Shown here in pieces: positions 22,960-25,685 of a stretch of 32,287 nucleotides of DNA; the first letter of the stretch is position 1; each line of letters opens with the position of its first letter. The position numbers and the translations under genes are program-made. The stretch covers positions 1 to 32,287 of the forward strand of contig JAFAJV010000024.1 in NCBI GenBank assembly GCA_019235995.1, in the 5' to 3' direction. Source of the stretch: Vulcanimicrobiota bacterium. Lineage in GTDB: Bacteria; Vulcanimicrobiota; Vulcanimicrobiia; Vulcanimicrobiales; Vulcanimicrobiaceae. The notes beneath the pieces are model-generated. The model searched no databases and was not told the origin of the DNA. It saw nothing but the letters and a program-made list of their open reading frames with translations.

Positions 22960-22994
22960 GCGGGCGGTCGCATCGCGATCGCCCGCCCGATTTT
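22960..22994. terminator. Bidirectional intrinsic terminator
   Basis: A 12-bp stem including one G.U pair (GCGGGCGGTCGC / GCGATCGCCCGC, 3-base loop) lies just after the OppF-type gene. On the plus strand it is followed by CCGATTTT. On the minus strand it is followed by TTTTTCTTA, so it serves the H1-like gene even better. Confidence 0.8.
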
Positions 22995-23005: not shown

Positions 23006-23386
23006 CTAGGCCTTTTTCTTGCGGCCGCCCTTGCGCTTCTTGCGCGCAACCTTGCGTGCGGCTTTGCGGACCTTGCGTCCGGCTTTGCGGCCGCCCTTGC
23101 GAGCCTTTCGCGCGCCCTTGCGAGCCTTGCGCGCGCCCTTGCGCACGGCTTTGCGCACTTTACGCCCGGCTTTGCGCACTTTACGCCCGGCTTTGCGCGT
23201 GGCCTTGCGAACCTTGCGAGCGACTTTGCGACCCGCCTTGCGCGTCTTGCGGGCACCCTTGCGCGCCTTCTTGCGGCCGGCCACGGCCTTCTTCACGGCA
23301 GCGGCCGCTTTACGACGGCGCGCTTTGCGACGAGGCTTCGGAGCCTCCATAGCCATGTCGCCGCCAAGTATGGAATCGGAGTCCAT
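23006..23386 (-). CDS. Histone H1-like Lys/Arg/Ala repeat protein (AlgP/HC2-like)
   Basis: This 126-residue protein has a short acidic N-terminus (MDSDSILGGDMAMEAPKP) followed by about 105 residues of almost only Lys, Arg, Ala, Gly and Val. They form degenerate units such as RKARKGARKARK and AGRKVRKAGRKVRKAVRK, ending GGRKKKA. Such tails bind DNA without base specificity in eukaryotic H1, chlamydial Hc2 and Pseudomonas AlgP. GAGGAGGA lies 4 bases before ATG 23386. A consensus-like promoter is present upstream and a terminator lies 20 bases beyond the stop, so it is a single-gene unit divergent from topA. A role in compacting or tuning the nucleoid is inferred. Confidence 0.85.
   Translation of the reverse strand: MDSDSILGGDMAMEAPKPRRKARRRKAAAAVKKAVAGRKKARKGARKTRKAGRKVARKVRKATRKAGRKVRKAGRKVRKAVRKGARKARKGARKARKGGRKAGRKVRKAARKVARKKRKGGRKKKA
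23147..23198. repeat. 21-bp in-frame tandem repeat within the H1-like gene
   Basis: A 21-base unit beginning GGCTTTGCGCACTTTACG is present at 23147-23167 and identically at 23168-23188, with ten bases of a third copy. On the coding strand it gives the heptad GRKVRKA/AGRKVRK. Exact copies imply recent slippage or recombination and a protein of variable length. Confidence 0.8.
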
Positions 23387-23453
23387 TCATTCCTCCTCGT
23401 CCCCGGGGACGATTAGCGTTCTGTGGACAGCGCCTTGCAGCGCTTTTGAGCGA

Positions 23454-23482
23454 ATCATAGAGGATTTTACCAAATGATGCAA
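23454..23482 (-). promoter_or_regulatory. Predicted promoter of the H1-like gene
   Basis: On the minus strand, TTGCAT (23482-23477) and TATGAT (23459-23454) are 17 bases apart, in an AT-richer patch. Transcription should begin near 23447, giving a leader of about 60 bases. Confidence 0.65.
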
Positions 23483-23522
23483 ATTCGCTTTTCGGGATAA
23501 ACTCCGTCGCAGGAGCGTTAAT

Positions 23523-23551
23523 TTGCGGAGCCTTGACCCCGGCGGTATACT
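23523..23551 (+). promoter_or_regulatory. Predicted promoter of topA, implying a leaderless mRNA
   Basis: TTGCGG (23523-23528) and TATACT (23546-23551) are 17 bases apart. The -10 box ends 7 bases before the GTG start of topA, so the expected transcription start coincides with the start codon. No Shine-Dalgarno sequence is present there. Confidence 0.6.
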
Positions 23552-23558
23552 AGGGCCC

Positions 23559-25685
23559 GTGAAAAAGCCCCTGATCATCGTGGAGTCGCCCACGAAGGCG
23601 CGGACGATCAAGAAGTTCTTGCCCGCGCGCTATGCCGTGAAGGCATCGGTAGGGCACGTGCGCGACCTTCCGAAGAGCACGCTGGGCGTCGATGTCGAGC
23701 ACGATTTCACGCCGAAATACCTGACGATCAAGGGCAAGGGCGAGCTCATCAAGGAGCTGCGCGGCGCCGTGAAAAGCGCGACCGACGTGTACCTCGCGAC
23801 GGATCCCGATCGCGAAGGCGAGGCAATCGCCTGGCACCTCAGCGAGCTCTTGAAACTCTCCGATCCAAAGCGCATCGAGCTCCACGAGATCACCAAAGAC
23901 GCCGCCCTGGCGGCGCTCAAGCACCCGCATCACATCGACATGGACCGCGTCAATGCCCAGCAGGCGCGGCGAATCTTGGATCGTCTCGTGGGCTACAAGA
24001 TATCGCCGCTGCTCTGGGCGAAGGTGCGCGGGGGTCTGTCGGCCGGCCGGGTGCAGTCCGTCGCCGTCAAGCTCATCGTCGATCGAGAGCGCGAGATCGA
24101 AGCCTTCGTTCCGCGCGAGTACTGGACGGTCGCGGCGCTCCTGGCGTCCAAGGACGCGGCCGCCGACGCGGCTTTCTCCGCTGATCTGGTCTCGTATCGC
24201 GGCGAGAAACTGGAGATTCCCACGCAGGCCGCCGTGGACGCCATCCTGCTCGCGCTCGAGGGCGCACGCTATCGCGTTTCTTCGATCAAGAAGCGCGAGC
24301 TGCGACGGCACGCGCCCGCGCCGTTTACGACGTCGACCCTGCAGCAAGAGGCGTCGCGCAAGCTCAAGATGCGCGTGCGTCGGGCCATGCAGATCGCGCA
24401 GACGCTCTACGAGGGCGTCGATCTCGGTGGCAGCCAGGGGACCGAAGGTCTCATAACCTACATGCGCACCGACTCGACGCGAATCAGCGATGCGGCGCGT
24501 GCGGCGGCCGAGCAGTTCATCGTGGACACGTACGGCAAGGAGTTCCACGGCGGGACGCGCCACCGCGTGCGCGAGGGCGCGCAGGACGCTCACGAAGCCA
24601 TCCGGCCGACCTCGGTCCACCACACGCCGGAGAGCCTCGCCGGCGTTCTCAAACGCGACGAGCTGCGGCTCTATACCATGGTCTGGGAGCGCTTCGTGGC
24701 ATCTCAGATGGCTCCGGCGCTGCTCGATCAGACGGTCATCGACGTGGCGGCCAACGATTACGGCTTCCGGGCGACCGGCACGGTCATGCGTTTCCCCGGC
24801 TTCACACGCGTCTACGAAGAAGGGCGCGAGGAGGAGTCCGCCGGCAAGGGCCGCGTTCGGCTCCCTCAATTAGAGGAAAACGCGGAGCTGGACTGCCGCA
24901 AGCTCGAGCCCAAGCAGCATTTCACCGAGCCGCCGCCACGCTACACGGAGGCCGCCCTCGTGAAGGCGTTGGAGGACAACGGCATCGGCCGGCCGTCGAC
25001 CTACTCCGCGATCGTGGAGACAATCCAGGCACGCGGCTACGTCACGCAGCAGGATCGGCGCTTCGTCCCGACCGAGATCGGGGCCGCCGTCAACGACCTG
25101 CTGGTCGAGCATTTCCCCAACATCGTCAGCCTGGACTTCACCGCCCAGATGGAAGGCGACCTCGATAAGGTCGCGGAGGGCCACGAGGATTGGATCGTCC
25201 TCTTGCAGCGATTCTACGGGCCCTTCGAGAGCGACCTCGACACGGCCGAGAAGAAGCTTCCGCGGCTCGAGCTGCGCGACGAGCCGACCGATGAGATCTG
25301 CCCCAACTGCGGCCGGCCCATGGTCATAAAGACGGGGCGCTTCGGGAGGTTCATCTCGTGCACCGGCTATCCCGAATGTAAGACCACGAAGCCGATCGTC
25401 AAAGAGACCGGCGCCGACTGTCCCAAATGCGGAGGCGCGGTCGTCGAACGGCGCTCGAAAAAGGGCCGGGTGTTTTACGGCTGCGCGAACTATCCGAACT
25501 GCGACTTCATCTCGTGGGACGCCGTGGCTCGAGAGCGGTGCCCGGTATGCGGATCCCACGTCGTCGCCAAGACGCGCCGCGGCGGCACCGTCCAACTGCA
25601 GTGCGCGGCCGATCGCAGCCACGACGTCAGCACGCTCGCGACGAGCGAGGCCGCCGCTTCGGAGCGCGAACCCCTCGAGGCGTAA
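23559..25685 (+). CDS. topA: DNA topoisomerase I
   Basis: This 708-residue type IA enzyme relaxes negative supercoils. From GTG 23559 it begins with the Toprim domain (IIVESPTKARTIKKFLP, DPDREGEAIAWHL). The active-site Tyr is residue 301 in LITYMRTDSTRIS. C-terminal zinc ribbons occupy about 581-690: CPNCGRP...CTGYPEC, CPKCGGA...CANYPNC and a third degenerate CPVCGSH...C. A longer frame from 23523 is rejected because it precedes IIVESPTK with residues that overlap the promoter. trmFO starts 1 base after the stop. Confidence 0.96.
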   Translation: MKKPLIIVESPTKARTIKKFLPARYAVKASVGHVRDLPKSTLGVDVEHDFTPKYLTIKGKGELIKELRGAVKSATDVYLATDPDREGEAIAWHLSELLKLSDPKRIELHEITKDAALAALKHPHHIDMDRVNAQQARRILDRLVGYKISPLLWAKVRGGLSAGRVQSVAVKLIVDREREIEAFVPREYWTVAALLASKDAAADAAFSADLVSYRGEKLEIPTQAAVDAILLALEGARYRVSSIKKRELRRHAPAPFTTSTLQQEASRKLKMRVRRAMQIAQTLYEGVDLGGSQGTEGLITYMRTDSTRISDAARAAAEQFIVDTYGKEFHGGTRHRVREGAQDAHEAIRPTSVHHTPESLAGVLKRDELRLYTMVWERFVASQMAPALLDQTVIDVAANDYGFRATGTVMRFPGFTRVYEEGREEESAGKGRVRLPQLEENAELDCRKLEPKQHFTEPPPRYTEAALVKALEDNGIGRPSTYSAIVETIQARGYVTQQDRRFVPTEIGAAVNDLLVEHFPNIVSLDFTAQMEGDLDKVAEGHEDWIVLLQRFYGPFESDLDTAEKKLPRLELRDEPTDEICPNCGRPMVIKTGRFGRFISCTGYPECKTTKPIVKETGADCPKCGGAVVERRSKKGRVFYGCANYPNCDFISWDAVARERCPVCGSHVVAKTRRGGTVQLQCAADRSHDVSTLATSEAAASEREPLEA

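Follow-up and report, generated by a model that had tools for sequence, protein, structure and literature searches.

A predicted leaderless topA with a conserved TTGAC element in its promoter spacer in a Vulcanimicrobiota bacterium

The DNA topoisomerase I gene (topA) of a Vulcanimicrobiota bacterium appears to be transcribed from a promoter with its -10 box so near the coding sequence that the mRNA is predicted to begin at the start codon. The gene lies in a stretch of 32,287 nucleotides (nt), referred to here as the window, which is contig C47 of the genome under study (G000, 2.6 Mb). Comparison across the class indicates that the leaderless topA is likely a conserved, derived state, and that TTGAC, found within the promoter spacer, most likely serves to control topA specifically, either as a half-site for a regulator or by giving RNA polymerase a second, shifted contact of the -35 kind. 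As a whole, the explanation we regard as probable is that topA is leaderless and served by a -10-adjacent promoter, that its leader was lost within the window's family, that TTGAC is a control element, and that a neighbouring gene for an H1-like protein is a separate unit.

The predicted protein has the make-up of a normal bacterial topoisomerase I, with the Pfam domains Toprim, Topoisom_bac and Zn_ribbon_Top1 above their cut-offs, and its closest named relatives come from metagenome-assembled genomes of Candidatus Eremiobacterota. The gene and its promoter contain the following features.

23523-23528, plus strand: probable weak -35 hexamer TTGCGG, spacer 17, from conservation of TTG in relatives
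23533-23537, plus strand: TTGAC element inside the topA promoter spacer, 8 nt before the -10 box, conserved in 104 of 105 class loci
23546-23551, plus strand: topA -10 box TATACT, ending 7 nt before the GTG, from the sequence
23552-23561, plus strand: discriminator AGGGCCC and start codon GTG, from the geometry
23559-25685, plus strand: topA, DNA topoisomerase I, GTG start, 708 residues, matching NCBIfam topA_bact (TIGR01051) at 798 bits (cut-off 456)

The placement of TATACT 7 bases before the GTG, on which the original prediction was built, is read directly in the sequence, and the predicted transcription start is the G of the GTG or the base before it. The -35 hexamer matches the consensus at 3 of 6 positions, its TTG standing 10 nt before the spacer TTGAC, and the promoter scan did not include the topA promoter in its list.

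Comparative counts were drawn from a search of 117 genomes of the class, 108 of which gave a topA match at an E-value up to 1e-50. Three families are distinguished: f1, the window's own; f2, the other family of its order; and f3, the third family of the class. The topA proteins are about 60% identical between families. Starts were found at the homologous place, with upstream DNA, in 105 loci from 104 genomes, 92 from f1 and f2 and 13 from f3. Left out were G061 and G082, in which the match falls short of the gene start, and G046, whose start was not recovered by tblastn; a pattern search gives its promoter as TTGAC-N9-TATAGT. The f2 genome G040 also stands outside the counts, and its promoter (TTGAC-N8-TATACT, with 24 nt from the -10 box to the GTG and a GGAGG) fits the class pattern. 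G098 contributes two full topA loci (L163 and L164) from one bin with 7% contamination, which is perhaps a mixed bin.

The distance from the -10 box, which reads TATACT in 92 loci and TATAGT in 13, to the start codon is bimodal. It is 6 nt in 9 loci, 7 nt in 56 and 27-111 nt in 40, and with G040 added the empty range is 8-23 nt. All 65 short-distance loci belong to f1 and start with GTG; the 40 leadered loci start with GTG (19) or TTG (21). Core Shine-Dalgarno (SD) 4-mers were found in 2 of the 65 leaderless loci versus 28 of the 40 leadered ones, and a looser set in 17 versus 39. These counts support the absence of a leader that was originally proposed for topA. The -10 box of leaderless loci is joined to the start codon by a short G/C-rich stretch, and G-rich DNA after the -10 box is common to many leadered promoters (e.g. 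TATACTTAGGGCGTTT).

On a tree of 109 TopA proteins, four of them from other classes (quick search, support by the Shimodaira-Hasegawa-like approximate likelihood ratio test (SH-aLRT) only, midpoint root shown), the leaderless label takes two changes, and a single change is compatible with the well-supported branches. None of 500 label shuffles gave a change count as low as that observed. Since f2, f3 and the outgroups are leadered, the leaderless state appears to have been derived inside f1. One f1 genome, G025, has a leadered topA together with the spacer TTGAC and the divergent H1-like gene.

The TTGAC element is shared by all three families, and is therefore old. It lies 8 nt before the -10 box in 73 of the 104 loci that have it and 9 nt in 31. 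At the normal -35 place, TTG is found in 83 of the 92 f1 and f2 loci (spacer 17-19) and TTGAC in all 13 f3 loci (spacer 17-18); 12 of the 13 f3 promoters hold a tandem TTGAC-N4/5-TTGAC, the first half of which is degenerate, mainly TTG, in f1 and f2. TTGAC and TATACT are invariant (100%) across the 56 leaderless loci that share one spacing, partly because the search pattern required TTG and TAT..T; positions 40-60 nt upstream reach 32-55%. The distance from TTGAC to the GTG is 26 nt in 64 of the 65 leaderless loci.

In 18 genomes the pattern TTGAC-N6-10-TATAVT gave 62 matches, 17 of them at topA (in 17 of the 18 genomes), leaving 45 elsewhere compared to 40 for a reversed control pattern. Matches outside topA are thus at control level, and TTGAC looks specific to topA; a general short-spacer promoter type of the class, considered as a candidate, was rejected on this count. 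The genomes searched gave no sign that the architecture of a second TTGAC in a sigma-70 spacer recurs beyond topA. Outside the class, 6 of 62 topA loci had a loose match, all in Bacillus or Gottfriedia and ending 151 nt before the start; the background for this search, 400 kb on both strands, held 1 strict and 9 loose matches.

Some further details of these promoters were recorded. In loci with a spacing of 9 and a distance of 6 (e.g. L021) the -10 box has moved by one base and the interval from TTGAC to GTG is unchanged. A second TTGAC-N8-TATAAT is present in the genome under study away from topA (contig C14, 7117-7135, minus strand). All 13 f3 promoters (L119-L121, L123-L130, L193, L195) have GTCCC 32-33 nt before the -10 box, and in 11 of them the word occurs again 28-36 nt after the first base of the first copy; the repeated GTCCC is possibly a second control site flanking the f3 topA promoter.

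Several points weigh against a leaderless topA under TTGAC control. One of the 105 loci, G049, has TTGGG in place of TTGAC. Of the 15 TTGAC...TATAVT pairs in the genome under study, three besides topA are closely spaced (6, 8 and 11 nt), and the remaining eleven lie at 17-23 nt. A regulator that would bind TTGAC was not found; a paper on NrdR names topA, with a mechanism that the authors themselves call questionable (PMC12051234). In-frame stops are absent from the 20 codons upstream of the GTG in 51 of the 65 leaderless loci, so a start further upstream is possible at some of them. In the genome under study TATACT-N7-GTG occurs at chance level (1 match versus 3 in the control), and it is raised above chance by its retention, at 6 or 7 nt, in 65 of the 105 class loci. 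In favour of a leaderless topA is a broader count, which in 432 kb made up of 232 kb of the genome under study (window included) and 200 kb of its sister G013, gave 10 cases of TAYRMT 6-7 nt before possible starts versus about 1.6 expected from other distances, with TATAVT at 5 versus about 0.6 and TANNNT at 22 versus about 9. The starts in this sample are uncurated, TAYRMT is the clearest of the three hexamer patterns tried, and topA itself, whose site fits the pattern, is among the matches. The excess suggests that leaderless genes exist as a minority in this lineage.

If this explanation is right, topA would be served by a promoter of the sigma-70 type with the -10 box immediately before the gene, and its mRNA would begin at the GTG or one base before it. 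Ribosomes would then start on the bare 5' end of the message without an SD sequence, a mode of translation established in other bacteria. The leaderless state would have arisen once or twice in f1, by loss of a leader of some 24-111 nt, and the TTGAC in the spacer, which follows the -35 position by roughly one turn of the helix, would tune the topA promoter. The H1-like gene would be a separate unit, leadered, strongly SD-driven and transcribed the opposite way, and DNA topology may be the common target of the H1-like protein and TopA, by analogy with mycobacterial HupB and TopA.

The control element could take the form of a direct-repeat operator, the upstream TTG and the spacer TTGAC being half-sites some 9-11 nt apart for a regulator of the OmpR/PhoB type. 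Operators of that type have two like half-sites about 10-11 bp apart and usually serve several genes. The tandem TTGAC of f3 has this form, and most f1 and f2 promoters have TTG at the -35 place before TTGAC. However, little more than TTG of the first half-site is kept in f1 and f2, G049 has lost the second copy, and the pattern shows no excess outside topA, where the sites of such a regulator would usually recur. On this analogy we hold the operator as a tentative possibility.

The original prediction linked the promoter of topA to that of the gene on its other side. The features of this gene and its leader are given below.

22960-22986, no strand assigned: terminator-like stem of 12 pairs between the convergent oppF and H1-like genes, found by program on the plus strand
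23006-23386, minus strand: gene for an H1-like protein rich in lysine, arginine and alanine, ATG start, 126 residues, acidic N-terminus MDSD, from the open reading frame and its composition
23392-23397, minus strand: SD sequence AGGAGG of the H1-like gene, near-invariant in an alignment of 71 leaders
23398-23411, minus strand: hairpin CGUCC-N4-GGACG adjoining the SD, present in 74 of 88 leaders
23429-23444, minus strand: hairpin close to the 5' terminus of the H1 transcript, from RNA folding, with arms that differ between lineages
23454-23483, minus strand: H1 promoter TTTGCA-18-TATGAT (equally TTGCAT-17-TATGAT), scoring 9 of 12 in the scan

The two genes diverge as described, with starts 172 bases apart. 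Their promoters had both been called good, a judgement that fits the H1 site and does not fit topA, given its poor -35 and its absence from the scan list. The divergent pair is present in 88 of 88 testable f1 and f2 loci, the two families of the window's order; four genomes (G073, G018, G038 and G039) have too little upstream DNA for the test, and a spurious match in G073 was dropped. The distance between the two starts in relatives is 128-475 nt (median 207). In f3 the divergent gene is found in none of 11 loci with more than 600 nt upstream, so the H1-like gene was either gained in f1 and f2 or lost in f3.

The genes around the pair are conserved too. oppF lies upstream in 23 of the 30 f1 and f2 loci tested, the other seven having only 178-844 nt of upstream DNA, and it lies upstream of topA in 8 of 11 f3 loci (in one by 55 residues only) with no H1-like gene between. 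Among 21 genomes with longer flanks, oppD and oppF are upstream in 20 and trmFO is downstream in 21; the exception, G097, has lost oppD and oppF from the flank and kept the H1-like gene. The downstream gene belongs to the GIDA family (Pfam) and is read here as trmFO. The block oppD-oppF-H1-topA-trmFO is conserved as a whole.

In the original prediction the divergent genes may form a unit coupled by supercoiling: either promoter would sense the supercoils that arise at the other, and DNA compaction would be balanced with relaxation. Such co-control is compatible with the explanation preferred here, and the complete retention of the pair, also in G097 after the loss of its oppD and oppF, would fit it. 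Parallels exist in topA of Streptomyces coelicolor, induced by increased supercoiling (PMC5055605), and in mycobacterial HupB, which has an H1-like tail and interacts with TopA (PMC5676037). However, oppD, oppF and trmFO are equally conserved (20, 20 and 21 of 21), the distance between the two starts varies nearly fourfold, and f3 has the same TTGAC element in 12 of 13 loci without the H1-like gene. With flanking genes conserved as well and TTGAC present without H1, conservation of the pair is no special evidence for co-control, and the topA promoter does not depend on an H1 neighbour. We therefore consider supercoiling co-control unlikely, and the conserved, topA-specific TTGAC the more interesting find.

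In a more speculative version of the preferred explanation, the second TTGAC would be a built-in torsion sensor. It would offer a -35-like site engaged in or out of phase, with the choice made by twist, so that topA would read supercoiling directly; one lineage would then have lost the leader and coupled the sensor promoter straight to leaderless translation. We find this version, taken with its last step, decidedly doubtful.

A special sigma factor that recognises TTGAC as the actual -35 box, in a promoter with an unusually short spacer, is very unlikely. In its favour, TTGAC and TATACT match the consensus best, and their spacing varies by one, as between -35 and -10 boxes. Against this, five of the six TTGAC...TATACT pairs in the genome under study are spaced 17-20 nt, counted from TTGAC, the normal -35 place is occupied by TTG in most f1 and f2 loci and by TTGAC throughout f3, and the short-spacer pattern is at control level outside topA in the 18 genomes. 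That the conserved block is coding, with topA starting upstream (e.g. at TTG 23523) and TTGAC and TATACT as codons, is scarcely credible: the frame is open in the window (an open reading frame runs from TTG 23523) and in the 51 stop-free loci, and the spacing of TTGAC to GTG is nearly fixed, but in-frame stops occur within 20 codons in 14 of the 65 loci, seven of them 5 codons before the GTG, and in leadered relatives, whose start falls on the homologous residue (with a core SD in 28 of 40), TTGAC and the -10 box are retained at 24-111 nt from it.

The H1-like protein of the window has 49% lysine plus arginine and an isoelectric point of about 12, and by its composition, small, very basic and rich in lysine, arginine and alanine, it is a putative nucleoid protein. 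Its 80 complete homologues have a median length of 133.5 residues and 46% lysine plus arginine. HC2 is a histone H1-like protein known from Chlamydia. Of four proteins scanned against Pfam, those of the window and two f1 homologues gave no match up to an E-value of 1, and an f2 homologue matched HC2 (PF07382) at 43.4 bits (cut-off 40), which may be explained by composition bias. A search of solved structures gave no match at an E-value of 0.01. A search of 17 genomes for H1-like genes returned only one match in the genome under study, two in G013 and a weak, broken one in G043; the absence of matches elsewhere is weak evidence, because the query is composition-biased and G025, which has the gene, was missed.

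Blocks similar to the H1 promoter recur in aligned relatives. The leader (23386-23447, minus strand) is predicted to form two hairpins, of which the second adjoins the SD and, as located by a per-sequence finder run on 88 leaders without a shuffled control, has loops mostly of 3-5 nt. This second hairpin is missing in seven loci of genus g52 (G095-G098, G100 and G101). Folding z-scores of the 88 leaders average -1.8 and are below -2 in 36. RNAalifold predicted no pairs on a MAFFT alignment of the 71 leaders that remained after removal of duplicates, twelve genomes with odd or short leaders and the spurious G073, in which the first hairpin and the loop lengths vary too widely from one sequence to the next; the arms of the second hairpin are nearly invariant, and therefore offer little covariation support.

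At the other end of the H1-like gene, the terminator-like stem is followed by a T run on the plus strand, and a U run is expected on the minus strand, which was read by eye, so that the stem could serve both strands. The two Rfam matches, Xoo2 over this stem and SorY inside topA, were below their gathering scores and were rejected.

Leaderless genes are usually counted per genome. Here the switch of a single orthologue from leadered to leaderless can be placed on a tree. Because leadered and leaderless forms share one promoter core, natural pairs are available for testing what the loss of a leader costs or gains. The spacer TTGAC is a concrete, testable candidate for the means by which topA responds to supercoiling or to a regulator. 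A literature search by title, which covered few subscription journals, returned nothing on a leaderless topA or on leaderless genes of this kind in Eremiobacterota, and nothing on this H1-like protein among papers on Eremiobacterota histones.

The closest parallel to the predicted topA transcript is in Deinococcus-Thermus, where the -10 motif of -10-adjacent leaderless genes precedes the start codon by about 6-7 bp, with a GTG start in the case of PprI (PMC12340547). Most such genes of Deinococcus lack a classical -35, whereas the topA promoter, of another gene in another phylum, has a conserved TTG and an extra TTGAC. The TA-led leaderless genes, with TANNNT about 12 bp before the start in many bacteria including high-GC groups, are also similar, but these came from a genome-wide survey whose main text does not contain the word 'topoisomerase' (PMC3160421), and here a single orthologue is followed from leadered to leaderless. 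The topA of S. coelicolor has two promoters and, in that organism, supercoiling-dependent promoter activity, and the introduction of the same report gives spacers of 13-16 bp for topA promoters (PMC5055605), in contrast to the one promoter predicted here, with a spacer of 17-19 that holds TTGAC. On the other side of the pair, the H1-like protein resembles HC2 as a low-complexity basic protein, but the copy in the window has no Pfam match and, of the four proteins scanned, the f2 homologue alone matches HC2. It also resembles mycobacterial HupB in its lysine-rich, H1-like tail, although HupB has an HU-like N-terminal part as well (PMC5676037), while the protein described here is almost entirely a tail of lysine, arginine and alanine behind a short acidic N-terminus, and the functional link between nucleoid protein and TopA is HupB's.

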